The notes under the pieces were generated by a model. It ran no database searches. It saw only the letters and a list, made by a program, of their open reading frames with translations, and was not told where the DNA came from. From NCBI RefSeq assembly GCF_000313135.1, contig NW_004457380.1, positions 400,168 to 457,714 on the forward strand: 57,547 nucleotides of DNA. The letters are read 5' to 3'. A program made the translations under genes and the position numbers. Origin of the DNA: Acanthamoeba castellanii str. Neff. Lineage: Eukaryota; Discosea; Longamoebia; Acanthamoebidae. Below are positions 44,824 to 56,455 of the stretch, one piece after another (position 1 is the first letter of the stretch; the number at the start of each line of letters is the position of its first letter).

Positions 44824-47800
44824 ATGCAGCAACAACAGGTCAGGGCGGCTCTTGCTCAGCCCAACGGTGCCAACAAGAGCGTATTGAACCAGGCAGTCCT
44901 GGGGCTGGGCGGGCTCCTGCCCCACTACTCATGGTCCCAGCCTGACGGTCCTGCCCACGCCCCTTCCTTCACCGCCTCAGGTGATCTATCTCTTTATTGA
45001 TAGTTTGTTCAATTTATTGTTTCTCTATTGTTCTTTTTTGTGTTGGGGGCAGTCGAGGTGTGCATACCGGGACAGGCGATGGTGGAGGGACGTGGCCAAA
45101 GCAACTCGAAGAAGAGAGCGGCCGACGTCGCGGCTGCCCACGCCTACCGACAGTTGGTGGACCTGGGGTGCGGCTACGCGGCGGCCATGCCCTTGTGTGT
45201 GATGGCCACGTGATGGCAATAATGGCGACTGACCACCATCGTGCGTGATCGCATTCCGCCGGTAGACTGGCGCCCGCCATGAACGAGAAGCCCACGGAGA
45301 CCGGACCCGGCACGGAAAGGCCAGCTGGCGCACCCAAGAACAGGACGGTTGAGGGCGTGGTCAGGGGCCAGCCCCCGCGCAAGCGGAGCCGCGGTGACGA
45401 CGAGATCGCGGCGGCCCTGCCGCGCCTGCCGCACGCGTCCGGTGCCCCCGTCACGTGCTACGCGTACGCTCTGAGCTTGCCCGATGTCGACATGGTGCGT
45501 AGTAGTGCGTTGTGTCTTCGCCTCGTGTCGCGTCCGTGCCTTTCTTGTACGCTTATTCGTTCGGACCCACAACAGGGCCGCGACTACGAGCACTTTGCGG
45601 GCCTGCGGTTCGCGGGGTTCCACCTGATCAGCTCCACGTCCCTCCACATTCCCCAATTCAAGTTATGCGGTACGTCTCGCCGTCAGACATCACACACACA
45701 CACACAACACAACACGGTACGGCACGGCACGACACGACACAACAGACAGGGACCTGACTCCTGGTGGTGCACGTGGTGGTGAGTGACAGGGGAAAAATTC
45801 GAGCGTGTCCGGGTGCTTGTGGCGCCGGAGAGGCAGCTGCGGCTATCGGCCCCGGAGCTGCAGGTCGTGCGGGATGTCCATGAGCACCTCTTGCACACCA
45901 TCCTGCGCGTGCAGCAAAAACTACAGTTCACGCCCGGCAGTCTCTACATCCTCCCACGGTTTATTCCTTCTCGGTAAGTGCACCACGCCTGTTTGTGTTG
46001 TGCGTGTGCGTGTGCGTGAACACCACGTGTATAATGCCATCCCGTGGTGCTTACGCGTTGTTGATAGAGATACGCCGGATCTCATAGACCATGATGACGA
46101 CCTGCGGCTCCCATTTGTCAAGTCCCTGATAGACCAGCGCGTGCCGGCCTACGATCGCTTCCACGAAATCCTGCGCCAGACAGGCGTCGAGCTCGGCCAG
46201 CCCAAGAACGGCCCCCCTGACCAGCAGGCCGCGCTACCAGACTCCGCCGAAAGCCTTCGCCGGGCGCAGACGCGCGTCGACGCCGAGTTCAGTGGCCGCA
46301 TCTTCTTTACCACGTACTTACTTTAGTAGCAATCCTTCTCATCATCATTGTAATGGTGACAACACTTATCACGCGTGTTGTGCGTTGCGTTGCGGGCTGT
46401 CGTGTGTGTGTCGTGTGGTGGCCCAGATACAACGACTCAGCCTATGTGCTGTGTGGCGTCAATACGGACATCACGCCGCAGCATTGGTTCTGCAGCGCGG
46501 ACCGTCATTGGACGTCGTTCGCGCAGTACTACCGGCAAAAGAAGGGCATCGAGCTGGCACACGTGCAGCAGCCCATGGTCGTGGCCAACCAATGCAACGT
46601 AGGCGCTCTCGCCAACATCCTTCCCGGCACCGGCACCATCATCCCAGGCACCACCACTACCGCCTCCTTCTCTTCCTATTTGCGCACAAAGCGTTCTCTA
46701 ACATGTCGTGTGCATTGTGTATGTGCATCGTGTCGCGTTGCATGGCGTGTGTATATACTGTGGTGTGTGCCATGTGCGCCATGCTTATAGAGAGATCACC
46801 TGCGGGTGCTCCCCCTGGCGTGCCACTCGCTCTCGGCAAATGCCTGTTCGTGCCGCTCGAGCTTTGCACGATTTCCGGTGCAACCGTCCCCCGGCCCAAA
46901 TCGTATGCATTCCGTACATACGGCGCCTGACTGTCTCCGTACTACTTGCTCGCTCGCTCGCATTGTGGTCTGGGGCGGAGCAGGGCTGACGTTCGAGATG
47001 AGCACCACGCACGTCCACTACCTGCCCGGCATCCTCAACCACTGCCACGACCTGCAGCTGTTCTACGCCCGCGCCGACCGATTCCAGCAGGCGGGACACC
47101 TGCCCTTCATCAACCGGCGCCTACTCAAGGAGGTTCCGCTCTCCTCTACTTCTTCTTCTTCTTCTTCTTCTTCTTGAAGGCGGCGCGCGTTGGTGCACGT
47201 GTTTGCGGGCTGATGTGGTGGTTGGTGCCGTTGCATGGTAACAGGCCTTTACGCATTCCACCTTTGCGCACGCACGCGAGGTGGACACGACCCACAACGA
47301 GCGCCTGGAGTTCCTCGGCGACGGGGTCCTTGAATTCCTCGCTGTCACTCGCGTCTTCCTGCGCCACCCCACGGTGCGATCTCGAGTTTATACGCACCGC
47401 ACGCACTGGGAGTCCAAGACACAACACGCGAAGGCCGAGGCCTAACCACACACATTTCCTATTGCAGCTCACGGAGGGCGAGCTGACGGAGAAGAAGAAG
47501 CGCTACACCCGCAACGCCGTGCTGGCGCTGGCGGCCCAGGAGCTCGGCCTGCCGGAGTGCCTGCTCGTGACCGGCCACCCGATGTCGAACCCGCAGGGCG
47601 CCGCCAAGGTGTCGGCCGACCTCCTCGAGGCCGTGATCGCGGCGCTCTTCCTCGACCAGGGCATCGACCAGGCCAATCGCTTCTGCGAGGCCGTGCTCTT
47701 CGACCGGCATCAGGGCGGCACTGATGGCGAGGGCGGTGATGACGATCATGCTCGCGCTGAGTCTCGCCCCTTCGTCCGCAGCCCGCTCTACGCCAAACCG

Positions 47801-47888
47801 ACCGACCCAGCACTGGGCACAGACATCTGTACGTCTCTCTATCTGTCGTGCTGTCCCTCTCTGTCCAGCACGCACCTGAACGCACGCA

Positions 47889-47920
<32 letters not shown>

Positions 47921-49331
47921 CACACACACATGCACACACACGCACACGCACACAAGGTCCTCCCGTGGTGCGTGAAGCGGCGCGAGAGGCTGCGGATGTG
48001 GCGGGCCTGGAGTCCGCCCTGGGGTTCGCCTTTGGCGATAAGGGCTACCTGCAGCAGGTATAGGTTATCCTCGAACCACATGCAGGCGCTTTCGTATCCA
48101 CCGACCGAAAGGTTGCCACATACACGCGCGCCACACACCCGCCACACACAAAGACACACACACAGACACACACACGACACACACAATTTTTATATATATA
48201 AATAGGTAACGACGAATCAACAACTCACGACACAATCACCAGGCCGTGACCCACAAATCGTTCGCCGGCAGCGGCAGCAAGGGAGATGGTGGCAACATCG
48301 AGGAGAAGGGGAAGGAGAAGGAGAAGTCGACAGACGACCCCGAGGTCCAGGGGCGCGAAGGGGCGCCGAGGTACGTGGCCGAAGGATCCTACGAGCGCCT
48401 GGAGTTCCTCGGTGACTGCCTCCTTAAGTTCATCACCTCCGTCCACCTCTACTTCACCGCCCCCACAGATGTCCGCGAGGTGTGCGTGCGTGCGTGCGTG
48501 GCGCGCGTGTGTGTCGTGTATGTGTGATGCGTGGTGCGTGTGCGCTTTCGGTGCGTTGTACCAACCGACCACCGCAGGACACGCTGACCGACCGGCGTTC
48601 GATGCTGGTGCGGAACACATGGCTGGCCCAATGCACCGCGAGGCGCGGTCTCGACGCCTTCCTTCTGCACGGCCTGCCGTCCTCCCCCGGACCCGAGGAC
48701 AAGGTCCTGGGCGACCTCCTCGAATCCCTCATCGGTTCATCCCCCCCTCTCTTTGGTTGAGTTGCGTGCTGTGTGTGTTCGTGCGCGGCGTGTTGCATGT
48801 TGGCGTGTTGCGGGGCGCGGGCTGAACGCGCTGCGGGGCTGTGAGCAGGCGCGGCGTACCTGGACCGAGGCATGGCCGACCCGGAGACGATACAGCGGGA
48901 GCACGGGTGCGGGTGCGGCGTGGACGTGTTCGGGTGCCTCGTGCACAAGATCATCATCGCCGGCCAGGCCCAGCCCGAGGGGGCGAGTTGCGCTCCGGCC
49001 GTGGCCCACGGTCCCGGAGCAGCATTGGGGCACGACAGCGCTGAAGACGTCCGAGAGCTTCTCCAGGTCTTGTGCCAGCGTCGAGGCCTACCCGCGCCCG
49101 TCTACAAGGTACGTCCGATCCGTGGCGCCACGTCGTACGCGCGTGCGTGTGCGTGTGCGCAGTGGATGGAGCTGATGGTGGTGCGTCTGATAGGAGGTCG
49201 CTCCGGCAACGGAGGGAGAAGGCGTGCGGGTGGAGGTCCACCTCCAACTCGGGCCGGGCACCGGCGCGAGCGAGACCGAAGCTCAGCGGGCGGCAGCACG
49301 GGCGGCCCTGCTGCGCTGGTTCGCGTCGTAG
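44824..49331 (+). CDS. Dicer-like ribonuclease III without helicase domain
   Basis: First exons 44824-44980, 45053-45167, 45266-45494 and 45576-45669, with about a dozen more to the stop at 49331. The N-terminus is a double-stranded-RNA-binding domain (NKSVLNQAVLG, GPAHAPSFTASVEV, SKKRAADVAAAHAY). After a basic linker come a platform region and a PAZ domain (AYVLCGVNTDITPQHW, FAQYYRQKKGIEL, QQPM), then a connector (LFVPLELCTISG, HYLPGILNHCHDL). RNase IIIa has ERLEFLGDGVLEFL and ADLLEAVIAALFLD. RNase IIIb has ERLEFLGDCLLKF and GDLLESLIGAAYLDRG. Both keep the acidic catalytic residues. A C-terminal dsRBD (LQVLCQRRGLPAP, AARAALLRWFAS) closes it. It would cut dsRNA into small RNAs. There is no DExD/H helicase anywhere upstream; the next gene is on the other strand. 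Some exon edges near PAZ are approximate. Confidence 0.9.
47881..47951. repeat. (CGCA)n/(CA)n compound repeat in Dicer intron
   Basis: CGCA tetramers passing into CA dinucleotides, in the intron between the RNase IIIa and IIIb coding exons. Confidence 0.88.
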
Positions 49332-50504: not shown

Positions 50505-53500
50505 TCATGAGGTGTGGGTTGTGCTCCGCGCAGACTGCTCTGACTTGTGAACGTGGATGCGCCCGGTCCCCCTCTCCGTGCACCGCCCAATGTGTCCGGC
50601 GCACTCCACCCCCAGAGAACTGGCCGCCACCAGCCACACACCACACACCACACACACCGTGAGTATATATTTGGCGGGTCTGGGGCATTCCACCAGGTAG
50701 GGACCGGCAAAAAGGGGAAAAAAGGGGGGAGGGTAGGTCGGCGTACGCGAGCCTGTGGATGAGGTCGGCAGTGGCGTCGGGCGAAATGGCGATGAGCAGC
50801 CCGCCCGAGGTCTGCGCATCACACTGTACAGCACCCCCCCCCGCGGTCTCAACACAACCAACCAACCAACCAACCAGCCAGCCAACCAACGGGGGGGGGA
50901 ATGGGGATGAGAAAGGATAGCCCTGGGATGTGTGCTGCTTACCAGGAGGTGCTTGCCCACGGTGCCTATGCCCTCGGCCCAATTCACCACGGGCGCGAGG
51001 TACTCCAGGTTCGCCTTGGTACCTGCAGCACCCACCCAGCCCCAGCCCCCGCCCCCGCCCCCGCCCCCGATCAGTACAGACGATGAGGCACCCACCCCAC
51101 AAAGAGCCCCCTCCAATTTTGTTGGCTGGTGGCTGCTGGTGGCTGCTGGTGTGCTGTGCCGTGGTGTGCTGTGGCGGGCGCGAAGCGTACCGCCGGGTAC
51201 CACGCCCGCTGCAGCAAACTCAAACGCGCCGCGCATCATCGGCACCCGGTCTAGCCACACCTGTGCACGTGCGAGCTCAGTAACAGGGTTCCGCAACAAC
51301 CACCACCAGCCACCACCACCAGCGGCGCCACCACCAGCGTGGTAGGTGCTCGGGTCGACCCAGCCCTACGCGCCGCCAGCAGCGTCGTACCTCGACGTCC
51401 ACTTCGCTGCCCTCGGCCATCTCCCGGAGGTGTCCCAGCAGCCCAAAGCCTGGCGTGGTACCCGAATGGATTTGGGGGGGGGTAAGACTGAGCGACGCCC
51501 TACCGTGTCGCTCTCCCGTCCACGGCATTGGGGGAGGGGAGGAAGGAGCAGGAGCAGGAGCAGGAGGGGGAGCGGTGACGTGCCCGTGACATCGGTGAGG
51601 GCGTGCACGGACCCCACTTCTCGAATGGCCGTGAGCGGTTTGTCGTTCAGGGTCGTCATGGTCCGTATGGCTGCCATCTCTATCTCCTGCTCGGTTCACA
51701 CACGACACACACGCACACACACGCGACACACACGACACACACGACACACACAAAGAGAGAGAGAGAGAGAGAGAGACGGAACACGTTGGCCCAACGGTTA
51801 CTTGCCACGGCGGTGGGATGGCGGCGCACTTGCGACACCCGACACACGCTGCCACACATAAACTAGCGAGGAGCGGGGGGTGCCTTATGATCGACCAGGC
51901 CGCGCTTGAGGGCGGTGGTGATGATGCCCGTCCCGATGGGCTTGGTCAGCAGCAGGTCGTCCCCGACCTGGGCGCCCACGTTTCGCAACACCTGCGGTGC
52001 GCCGCGCATCCGGTCAGAATACGCCTTCCAATCGCCGCCGGCCACCACCACCACCACCACCCAGGATTGGCAGAACCACACGCCCGCTCCAACACCTACC
52101 TTGGTGGGGTGCACCACGCCCGTCACGGCCATCCCGAACTTGGGTTCGTTGTCGTCGATCGAATGCCCGCCCACCACGCGCACTCCGGCCTCCTCTGCCT
52201 TGGCCTGCGCCCTGTGCGTACAGCGCAGCAGACGGTGCGTGTGTGTGTGTGTGAGTGGTGTGTGTATTGTGGTGACGCGCGCGCCTCGAATCAGTCACCA
52301 GGTCTGCTCACGAACCACCCCTTAGCTAATGGGGGGGAGGGGCCGGACCCTTGCAGGATGCGCTGTAGCACGCCCATGGGCAGGCGCGTGGAGGGGAATG
52401 CCACGATGTTGAGAGCAAACAGGGGGGTGCCGCCCATGGCGTAGACCTGTTGGCCGCAAGCCCAATGCCACCCACGCGCGGGCGTAAGCAACCACGCGGT
52501 GCCGAGGATTGCACGGCGGCGGGACGAGCCTGACGTCCTCACGGGGAGCCGGGCGGCCACGTACATCCGAGAGGGCGTTGGCGGCGGCAATCTGGCCGAA
52601 AGTGTAGGGGTCATCCACCACGGGCGTGAAGAAATCCAGGGTGCTCACCACGGCGATGTCCTGCATGAGGCAATGATCACCGCGACGAGTGTCATGACAC
52701 ACCAGCCAAGAAGAAGAGCAACAACAACAAGAACAAGAAGAGCAACAAGAAGAACGTATGCCGCGCGCCCCTAGAGGAGGCGTGGGAGGGGAATGGGCGG
52801 ATGTAGATGGGGGGAGGTGCGTACGGGGGTGAGCCGGTAGACGGCGGCGTCGTCGGAGGTGTCGGATCCCACGAGCACGTTCTTGTCGTGCGACAGGGGC
52901 AGGGACTTGAGGATCTCGGCCAAGCGAGCGGGCGACAGCTTACATCCGCAACCCTGTGCGCCCGCCGCCACCATCCATTCATCGTTGGGCGTGGGCGTGG
53001 GCGTGGGCGTGGGCGTGGGCGTGGGCGTGGGCGTGGGCGTGGGCGTGGGCGTGGGCGTGGGCGTGGGCGTGGGCGTGGGCGTGGGCGTGGGCGTGGGCGT
53101 GGGCGTGGGCGTGGGCTGGGTCTGTCGCGGGGAGGTGGGCGTGCGTACCAGGCCAGAGGTGAATTCAGTGAGGCGGACCTTGTCCACCTCAGCTTCGCCG
53201 TCGGCCTCCAGGTCCCTCGCGTCTTCGGCTACACGCGGGAGGGGAGGGAAGCGAGGGATGAGAAAGGTAATTGGTTGGCAAAGCAAAGGGGCGCGCCAGG
53301 GAGGGAGGCGCGTGGTGGTGGGGGGGTTACCCGACGGCCGCAGTCGATAGAGGGCGTGCAGGATCACGCTCGACGCCTCCTCGATCTCCTCTCCCGTGGT
53401 CTCTCGTCCCGTGCTGAACCTGACCGTGCCCATGGCGAATCTGAGGCGCACACACGACACGACAGCAGCGTGATGAGTGCGGCTATACTTGTTGCTCCGG

Positions 53501-56455
53501 ATCTACACTCGCGGCGGCGGCGGCGGCGGCAGGGGATGGCTAGTTACTCCATGGGTACGCGCATGGCCGTTAGCACGGGCGACACTGTGATGCTCTCGCT
53601 GTGGCACGCCGCGCCTATGATGCCGAGGGGGAGGGGGGAGAGGGGGACGATGAGGCACGAAAGAGAGCGAGAGAGGATAAGACGGCAACGCTCCCCCGAC
53701 GGAGGGACCCAGGAAATGGGGGGGATGGGGAGTAGTCCATATAAATAGATATATATATATATATATGTATATATACCTGCCGATGCCGCCACCTGGGCGT
53801 GGATCTCAGACAGGAGCGCATTGGCCTCGATGCCCTGCTCACCCACCCACGCAATACCCCCCACCCCCACGGGACGGGTTATTCAGGGGTGGTGACTGGC
53901 TGGCTGCTGTAATGCCCTCGTGTGGCAGAAGGAGAGGGGGGGGAGGGAACCCTGAATGAAATGCTAAGTGTGTTGGGCAGGCGCTTGGAGTCGTCCTTGG
54001 GGCCATTGACCCGCGTTTCCAGGCCTGTGCCCGCCCAGACAACCAACCAACCAACCAACCAACCAACCAACCAACCAACCAACCAACCAACCAACCAACG
54101 ACAACAACGTCAGGAGTTCACCGCTGGAGAGCAAAAATAATAATGGGACCCGTAATGGAGGTATGGGTGTGATGTGGGTGTGCGTGCGTGCGTGCGTGCG
54201 TGCGTGCGAGGTAGGTATGCATGTACCGAGAGCCTTGCAGGCCTCGGTGAGGTTCGCTTGGAGGCGGTCGCGCAGCTCCTTCATGTGCTGGCTATTCCTG
54301 TTTAGATCACGCGCGCAAATCGTGCACGCCATCCCGAGGCCGGGAACCAGCAGCGTGTTCTGCGTCGTCGTCAGCCATTCCAAGTGTTAGCGCGTGTGGT
54401 GTGTGTGTGTGTGTGTGTGGTGTCACAACACTCGAGTGAGTGATCCCATCTGCGCGGGGGGGGACACGAGAAAGGAGGAGGAGGAGGAGGGCAATGTGTG
54501 GTGTTTTGGGAGGACAGCGGGCAATACCTCGGTGCCAGGCCGCCGGCCCGCTTCGTGATCGGCGCCGTGCATGAGCTTCTTCAGCTCCACCCCGCGCCGC
54601 ACATAGAGTGCGCCCACGCCTGGCAACACGCGCGACGGTAGGCGGCGCCACGTTAGGTGACAGGTGACCTGCACCCTGGCAGCCACCGACGGATTGGAGG
54701 GGAGAAGGGCCGTGCGCGTGCCTTTGGGTGCGTAGAGCTTGTGTGCGCACACGGACAGCATGTCGACTCCCATCTCGTCCACTCGCACCCGCACCTTGCC
54801 GATGCTCTGCGCCGCATCCGTGTGCACCGCAATTCCTGGTCATGGCGGCGGCGGCGGCGGCGGCGGCGGCGGAGGGAGAGGGAGAGGAGCACACACGGTA
54901 GGACGATTAATAGGCCGGCAGTCGCGATATGCGGCACGGGCCTCCCGTGGGATGATGGGAGGTGCTGCAGGTGCTGCAGGTGGAAGTGGTGGAGGGGGGC
55001 CTAGCGTACGGGCGCCGGCCTTCTGGCGCACGATGTCGACAATTTCCTTGATGGGCATGAGGGTACCCACCTCGTTGTTGGCGTGCATGATCGTCACGAG
55101 GATGGTGTCGGCACGGATGGCCTCCTGTCCCCCGCCACACACACGACAACACAACACACACACACACGCGCACCCGTCCACCACCAGCCACCCGTGAACA
55201 TTTTGCCGCACGCTATCGGAGGGGGGGGAGGAGAGAGAGAGAGAAGCAAAGGGCGCACCTCGAGATCCTGGAGGGACACGAGGCCCTCTTCGTTGACGGG
55301 CAGGCGCGTCACATAAAAGTCCTCCTCCCGCTCCAAGTACCTGCACGACACGAGAAAGGGACCGCCCACCCGGGGCTTTCAGTACCACCACCACCGGCCA
55401 GCACTCATGATGCTGGCGCGTGCGCGGGGTGCTGGCCGGTGGCCGGTGGCGGTGGCGTACTTGACGACCTCCTCCACGGCGGGATGCTCCACGGCCGAGG
55501 TGATGATGTGCCGTCCCTTGTGCTTGTGCTGCAGCGCATAGCCCTGGACGACGCAGAAGAGAGAGAGAGAGAGAGAGAACAACAGAACACGCCGTGTTGG
55601 ATGAATGGATGAATGGAGTGGGGGGGGGAGGAGGAGGAGGTGTGGTGGTGGTGCGGTGTGCACCTTGATGGCGTAGTTGTTCGACTCGGTGCCACCCGAC
55701 GTGAAGACGATTTCGTCGACGCCACAGCCCAACGCCTCCGCCACCTGTGCGTGCGGTGGGCGGGTGAGCGTCCACTACCCAACCACATTGGGGGGGGGAG
55801 CGGGGAGGAGCTATTATTTGAAATAGTAGTGGGAAGGGAGGGACCTGCAGGCGGGCAGCTTCCACTGCCTTCTTGGTGGAGGCGCCAAATAGATGACCAC
55901 TGCGCGATACAACCACCGTGCATGTAGGACGTGAGAAAAAGGCACCAGAGCCAATCCAAAAGTGCCGCAGCATTAAGATGTGGAAAATCACCTGGAGGGA
56001 TTGCCAAAGAAGTGGTCCAGGAAGGGCCGCATGACGTCGGCAACTTCGCGGCTGATGGGTGTGGTGGCGTTGTAGTCCAGGTAGATGGGAGCGCGTGCGG
56101 CCATGCCGCCCGACCGGGCGAGGGTGCGGGTGTCGGCCGGGGGAGGCCTCGTGGCGGTGGCCATGGCAGAGGAGGCAGCGGGCAGGAATTCGTCTATGGC
56201 GCAGAAGGGACCAGACCCTTCGTAGGCCGAGATGCCGCTGCCGTGGGGGGACGAGTCCGGCGAGCAATAGTCCTCGGTGGAGGTGGTCGACGCGTTGGAG
56301 ATTCCGCTGCCGCCCCGATGCGACTTGCCCGACGATGACGAGGAGGAGGACGGGTAGGGACCCTGCTGGTTGTGCTTGTGCTTCGACTTGCCCGACCTTC
56401 GCGTCTCCCCCGTCTCCCGCCGCATCTTGGCGCGACGTGCCTCTCCCAGGAACAT
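50505..56455 (-). CDS. Selenocysteine lyase-selenophosphate synthetase fusion
   Basis: One continuous minus-strand gene of more than 20 exons starts at 56455. Residues 1 to about 115 are a Ser/Gly/His-rich leader. The PLP-dependent lyase follows: [66 protein letters not shown], the PLP lysine in [10 protein letters not shown], and the catalytic cysteine in AACHS with SPVLTAM. This is the selenocysteine lyase form of the NifS fold. The junction [19 protein letters not shown] is in phase. About 30 residues later selenophosphate synthetase begins: [15 protein letters not shown] (active-site Cys plus Lys), [75 protein letters not shown] and [15 protein letters not shown]. The active-site residue is Cys (TGC), not Sec. 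Both halves belong to one selenium pathway. Confidence 0.9.
50863..50890. repeat. Short (AACC)n tetramer array
   Basis: A run of ACCA/AACC tetramers, partly changing to AGCC, in an intron of the synthetase half. The same unit is expanded at 54038 in the same gene. Confidence 0.75.
52985..53116. repeat. (GGGCGT)n hexamer array in synthetase intron
   Basis: About 21 near-perfect GGGCGT units fill the intron just upstream (in gene sense) of the exon carrying the catalytic GCGCK. The + strand is G-rich and the coding strand reads ACGCCC. Confidence 0.95.
54038..54099. repeat. (AACC)n tetramer array in lyase intron
   Basis: About fifteen AACC units in an intron of the lyase half. On the coding strand it is (GGTT)n. 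Confidence 0.93.

Follow-up and report, generated by a model that had tools for sequence, protein, structure and literature searches.

A lyase-SelD fusion gene of likely bacterial origin in Acanthamoeba castellanii

Acanthamoeba castellanii very probably carries a nuclear gene for a bifunctional NifS-SPS enzyme of bacterial origin, which was acquired already fused, was later split by introns, and acts in a relay from selenium to selenophosphate. The gene lies on the minus strand of the window (the whole 57,547-nucleotide stretch of DNA analyzed) and joins an N-terminal NifS/SCLY-type lyase to a C-terminal SelD. The fusion is already known for Acanthamoeba as the NifS-SPS described by Mariotti et al. 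2015 (PMC4561486), where it is reported for A. castellanii and Naegleria gruberi; the preliminary description of this DNA had left room for a new eukaryotic fusion, and that possibility is not upheld.

Gene structure

In a splice model that joins exons at GT/GC-AG sites, the coding region runs from an ATG at 56455 to the end of a TGA at 50505, with 25 exons, 24 introns and 884 amino acids, and the frame is maintained through all 25 exons. The coordinates 50505..56455 had been proposed in the preliminary description and match the splice model exactly; the two enzyme domains that it placed in order on one strand are likewise recovered, on the minus strand, with the lyase N-terminal and in one 884-residue frame. 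The parts are as follows.

50505..56455, minus strand: whole coding region of the NifS/SCLY-type lyase-SelD fusion, 25 exons, 884 aa (splice model, homologues)
55992..56455, minus: exon 1, N-terminal extension of ~120 residues and lyase start (splice model, NCBIfam)
55845..55899, minus: exon 2, lyase (this and all further exons from the splice model)
55664..55744, minus: exon 3, lyase
55461..55543, minus: exon 4, lyase, with the Pro221 codon at ~55483-55481 (also motif alignment)
55259..55340, minus: exon 5, lyase
55010..55124, minus: exon 6, lyase
54722..54835, minus: exon 7, lyase, with Lys326 of CAHK (codon ~54740-54738), followed by a GC-AG intron
54528..54619, minus: exon 8, lyase
54227..54359, minus: exon 9, lyase
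53951..54024, minus: exon 10, lyase
53777..53834, minus: exon 11, lyase
53548..53614, minus: exon 12, lyase, with Cys454 of GAACHS (codon ~53606-53604), then His455
53331..53440, minus: exon 13, lyase end (...RLRPS) (also NCBIfam)
53149..53228, minus: exon 14, linker (~508-525) and conserved SelD start (also alignments)
52825..52953, minus: exon 15, SelD loop GCGCK with Cys538 (codon ~52950-52948, the Sec/Cys position) and Lys541 (also alignment)
52565..52660, minus: exon 16, SelD
52349..52446, minus: exon 17, SelD
52100..52211, minus: exon 18, SelD
51884..51991, minus: exon 19, SelD, followed by a GC-AG intron
51584..51686, minus: exon 20, SelD, followed by a GC-AG intron
51391..51449, minus: exon 21, SelD
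51191..51260, minus: exon 22, SelD
50943..51022, minus: exon 23, SelD
50747..50823, minus: exon 24, SelD, with CDAQTSGG
50505..50619, minus: exon 25, SelD end and stop codon
52771..53502, minus: frame free of stops from the lyase end to the SelD start, even unspliced (open-frame reading)

Twenty-one introns are GT-AG and three, after exons 7, 19 and 20, are GC-AG. The GC donors (54721, 51883 and 51583) make up 3 of 24 introns in the single gene counted, which is above the roughly 1% of eukaryotic introns that have a GC donor. The N-terminal extension (56455-56100, ~120 residues) is Ser-rich, is without a family match, and does not occur in the bacterial relatives of the 17-fusion alignment described below; the start codon of the fusion is uncertain, with Met 98 and Met 118 as alternatives. 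Bacterial contamination is ruled out: the gene has 24 introns with splice sites of eukaryotic kind, and its contig is 1,026,499 bases long. Elsewhere in the window, pieces of a ribonuclease III domain lie on the plus strand at 46931-48527 in two open frames, one above and one below the Pfam cut-off, and an Rfam scan of the whole window at gathering scores returned 0 matches. Over 125 residues, a profilin of this assembly has the same sequence as the solved profilin II 1f2k/2acg of A. castellanii.

Domains and catalytic motifs

The lyase half (124-507) matches the NCBIfam model TIGR03402 (NifS) at 435 bits, short of that model's equivalog cut-off of 530.75. The SelD half matches TIGR00476 at 398 bits over 528-838, exceeding the cut-off of 125, and a second NCBIfam model over 525-870, also above its cut-off. 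Pfam scores for the fusion protein are 240 bits for Aminotran_5, 102 for AIRS and 70 for AIRS_C. Judged by sequence, the lyase half is a group-I NifS/SCLY-type PLP lyase; it keeps CAHK with Lys326, presumably the PLP-binding lysine as in the family at large, and GAACHS with Cys454. In alignment with 3u0o, the SelD of E. coli, the SelD half keeps GLGCGCK with Cys538 and Lys541, DDAAVY, LDFFTP, ALSD and TDVTGFG. Its Sec/Cys position is a TGC codon, Cys538, and the in-frame UGA of selenoprotein SPS2 is absent. Against solved structures, the SelD half scores 279 bits with SelD 3u0o and 109 with human-type SEPHS1.

A single polypeptide across the junction

The domain junction lies at exons 13-14; VPME|FAMG, previously taken for it, is an exon junction within the lyase domain. 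The earlier estimate of about 30 residues between the halves is right for the distance from the lyase end (507) to GLGCGCK (535), but SelD begins at ~525, so the linker proper is ~18 residues. Phase-consistent exons over the junction and a single fused frame had also been claimed, and both are borne out by the splice model and by the open frame 53502-52771, which extends over exons 13, 14 and 15 with introns 13 and 14 between them. A stop or frameshift at the junction had been named beforehand as decisive against the fusion, and none was found in the genomic sequence of this stretch. Because the stop-free frame includes the introns, no splice form there would place a stop between the halves. 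Intron 14, which sits between the linker exon and the exon of the SelD catalytic loop, consists mostly of a GTGGGC repeat (window 52990-53120) whose length leaves the frame open.

That two neighboring genes, a lyase and a SelD, have been misread as one is highly improbable. Such a reading could draw on an ATG at 52974 in intron 14, in frame with GCGCK and a possible start for a shorter, separate SelD, and on the gene model being built from genomic sequence. A SelD begun at that ATG would, however, lose the conserved first strand, which is encoded by exon 14 together with the linker. No stop separates the halves, and a scan of the minus strand over about 53650-52500 found neither AATAAA nor ATTAAA as a poly-A signal. 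Bacterial single-ORF relatives share the order and almost the same spacing, and the fusion is published for A. castellanii (PMC4561486). From residue 476 to residue 615, no Met interrupts the spliced sequence as a possible internal start. Chance fusion is excluded because the amoeba protein aligns end to end with natural fusions. A single lyase-SelD polypeptide is thus well supported as the predicted product.

Prokaryotic relatives and origin

A homologue search of 5.8 billion proteins scored 7997 candidates, 4244 of them with E<=0.001, of which 120 were listed. In each of the 120 matches listed, a single chain contains both lyase and SelD Pfam domains, at 54-60% identity; candidates were limited to 0.55-1.75x the query length, which excludes stand-alone enzymes and makes the list uninformative on fusion frequency. 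Seventeen bacterial or archaeal single-chain fusions align over the whole amoeba protein, linker included, at 56-59% identity. In a scan of one-genome-per-species contigs, at least 26 loci among the best 80 hold both domains in one frame, in Bacteroidota, Zixibacteria, KSB1, Chloroflexota, Fidelibacterota, Calditrichota and other phyla. None of these 26 loci has a TGA from the lyase to the SelD end; the X positions listed for them are 1 (L037, ahead of the start) or at least 733. GxGCxCK is present in 25 of the 26 (L052 gave no pattern match) and in all 120 listed homologues.

A tree of the fusions (FastTree, n=147) was built from the 120 listed homologues (P rows), 26 of the 80 loci and the amoeba protein, with no starred set; L081 and L082, whose tblastn matches to the two halves fall in different frames, were left out. 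Here the amoeba groups with P0111 and P0112 (local support 92). Trees of each half drew on 29 fused rows, made up of 16 P/query rows and every second L locus, together with stand-alone rows. The amoeba lyase groups with fusions labelled Thorarchaeota and Chloroflexota at SH-aLRT 87 (tree of 50 rows). For SelD (57 rows), a clade with SH-aLRT 98 unites the amoeba, 28 other fusions and one stand-alone row; within it, the amoeba branches outside the remaining fused rows. Both amoeba halves group with prokaryotic fusions; the three trees differ on the nearest bacterial relative and do not single out a donor. Fused and stand-alone rows are intermixed in the lyase tree, with 7 changes, which implies repeated gain or loss of the fusion, or an exchange of lyases. 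Among the sequences compared here, no eukaryotic fusion sequence other than that of Acanthamoeba was seen.

Transfer of the NifS-SPS fusions of A. castellanii and N. gruberi from bacteria is the explanation given by Mariotti et al. 2015 (PMC4561486), and the alignment and trees agree with a ready-made fusion that likely came from bacteria. The preliminary description had instead treated the protein as a eukaryotic fusion of SCLY with SEPHS/SelD. Under that framing the amoeba would have formed the fusion on its own, by joining its SCLY and SPS2 genes, and both the resemblance of lyase His455 to SCLY and the placement of the amoeba outside, not among, the other fused rows of the SelD tree could be read in its favor. 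We consider this very unlikely: both halves are of bacterial type by the alignment and the trees, the SelD half also by its TIGR00476 score; it scores far better with 3u0o than with SEPHS1 and shares its clade with bacterial fusions, and a eukaryotic-type SPS2 piece exists as a separate locus.

Selenium genes of the host genome

Several components of selenocysteine decoding are recognizable in the same genome. For tRNA-Sec, one match lies above the cut-off (72 bits) and seven below, and the cut-off is passed in 5 of 14 control genomes. SepSecS exons at C242 give 8 matches (3 of 14 controls are positive, B. subtilis among them), and the fourth domain of eEFSec at C73 scores 89.7 bits, with 0 of 14 controls positive. 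Judged from these genes, the host decodes Sec; circumstantial evidence for a selenocysteine-containing thioredoxin reductase in A. castellanii has been presented (PMC8038987).

A genome search with the lyase half returned 14 matches, 11 in the fusion gene and 3 in one NFS1-like gene (C79). All 11 matches to the SelD protein query lie within the fusion gene, and the SelD family search placed 7 of 8 matches there and one at a second locus, C44, whose best solved matches (5l16, 9hjt and 3fd5) mark it as a eukaryotic-type SPS. The piece of interest at this locus is:

L126 (G000:C44:865500-873000), about 4281 to 3540, minus strand: SPS2-type piece with TGA at the Sec position

It reads MKG-TGA-GCK, and its pieces lie in different frames. 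Of eight SPS motifs sought in the six frames of L126, three are present (Sec loop, GQT and LTKPLG); DDPY, LSDLYAMG, DFFxP, TDxTGFG and TSGGL were not found there. A genome search with one SPS2-type exon of C44 returned only the exon itself. Downstream of the piece (L126 3205-3138), a SECIS_1 match of 25.5 bits (E 0.089) falls below the threshold of 35 and is not counted. On its sequence, the locus looks decayed or incomplete. An intact SPS2 that is divergent or unassembled may lie elsewhere in the genome, and additional SPS2 candidates in A. castellanii are mentioned in PMC4561486. Since the only other SPS-like locus found is incomplete, the amoeba may have no working selenophosphate synthetase besides the captured fusion. 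No description of a dead SPS2 in Acanthamoeba was found in the accessible text of open-licence papers, and an incomplete, UGA-bearing SPS2 piece as the only other SPS-like locus may be a new point.

Substrate of the lyase half

At the positions assigned to human SCLY residues 146, 256 and 389, the amoeba fusion has Pro221, Cys323 and His455; the placement draws on PMC3266270 and on the human sequence. Sec-specific SCLY carries Asp146, Val256 and His389, and other group-I enzymes have Lys, Ser, Thr or Ala (PMC3266270). Thus the fusion keeps His389, with Pro in place of Asp146 and Cys in place of Val256. The amoeba's NFS1-like protein has Lys, Ser and Thr at the three positions, as the same paper gives for non-specific enzymes, which supports the placement. 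Among 146 other fusions, the first position is Pro in all 146, the second is Ala in 143 (3 unread) and the third is His in 144 (2 unread). Twenty stand-alone relatives, a non-random sample chosen by the IYLDYNAT pattern, have Pro in 20 of 20; at the third position 17 have His and one has Glu, with two unread. This indicates that the signature is shared by a larger group of lyases than the fusions alone. No account of it in fused lyases was found in the accessible portions of open-licence papers, and in these enzymes it may be new.

The label "selenocysteine lyase" used in the preliminary description is too strong, given Pro at the selenium-specificity position Asp146; cysteine may be a substrate too. 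The lyase half could be mainly a cysteine desulfurase or sulfinate desulfinase that supplies selenide as a side activity. NifS is its best NCBIfam model, cysteine desulfurases come first among its solved-structure matches with selenocysteine lyases below, Pro replaces Asp at the SCLY specificity position, and most NifS-like enzymes are described as using both substrates (PMC3266270). We consider this reading rather unlikely, because the lyase is fused to SelD and a separate NFS1-like gene carries the ordinary Lys/Ser/Thr triad, which together suggest that Fe-S clusters obtain their sulfur from another source. That the fusion is active, and that Sec is its main substrate, is what we infer from sequence.

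Proposed mechanism

In the proposed relay, the PLP lyase would take selenium (and probably sulfur) from selenocysteine (or cysteine) onto Cys454 of its mobile loop. The selenium would then be handed on, either directly or along a very short path, to the mobile loop that carries Cys538 in the same chain, where the SelD half would use ATP to form selenophosphate for Sec-tRNA synthesis. A role in selenium supply is well supported, and direct hand-over from lyase to SelD within one chain is plausible by analogy: the mobile Cys segment of SCLY has been proposed to deliver selenium directly to SPS (PMC3266270), and trypanosome SEPHS2 binds SCLY in vitro as a separate protein (PMC7595633). Cys454 and Cys538 are 84 residues apart in the amoeba; the distance is 78-83 in 141 of 142 measured bacterial fusions and 111 in one (4 of 147 rows unmeasured). 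An alignment-based AlphaFold2 model of the bacterial homologue P0001 (pLDDT 85.9, pTM 0.53) does not fix the domain arrangement. Confidence in the model is low at residues 321-328, in the lyase Cys loop, at 378-387, in the linker, and at 400-403, in the SelD Cys loop, and GAACHS together with the low-confidence lyase loop suggests the mobile catalytic-Cys loop of group-I lyases. Foldseek with this model gave only cysteine desulfurases and selenocysteine lyases among the top 50 of 1959 matches, which is uninformative on the fusion.

It is conceivable, and we put it forward only tentatively, that the Cys-type fusion took over selenophosphate supply, with SPS2 only a remnant, and that the fused lyases form a distinct Pro/His subclass suited to hand-over to SelD. 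Under such a takeover, with the eukaryotic selenoprotein SPS2 left only as a piece, the amoeba would have escaped the loop in which Sec is needed to make Sec.

Relation to known fusions and significance

Compared by description, the gene shows no substantive difference from the NifS-SPS reported for A. castellanii and N. gruberi (PMC4561486): the genus (for A. castellanii), the N-terminal lyase, the Cys-type SPS and the bacterial transfer are the same. Bacterial and archaeal lyase-SelD fusions, Thorarchaeota included, resemble it in order, length, spacing and both active sites, whereas the amoeba gene has 24 introns, the extra ~120 N-terminal residues, and Cys in place of Ala two positions ahead of the PLP-site His-Lys. 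The NifS-SelD of Geobacter sp. FRC-32 has the same two domains in the same order (PMC2398784, PMC4561486), but its SelD is described as having selenocysteine where the amoeba has cysteine. Spironucleus salmonicida is likewise a protist with SPS and a NifS-like lyase in one protein, although by the paper's wording, on which our comparison is based, the NifS part is C-terminal (PMC3916229); a fusion is also described there for Caldithrix. Human SCLY and SEPHS2 carry out the same two reaction steps as separate chains, and human SCLY has Asp146 (PMC3266270) where the amoeba fusion has Pro.

With this fusion, a eukaryote would carry out two successive steps of selenium recycling on a single chain that probably came from bacteria and whose gene later gained introns. 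Should the SPS2 piece be dead, a transferred cysteine enzyme would have taken the place of a eukaryotic selenoprotein. Because the enzyme has its natural partner fixed to it, the Pro/His signature opens the question of selenium versus sulfur to a direct test.
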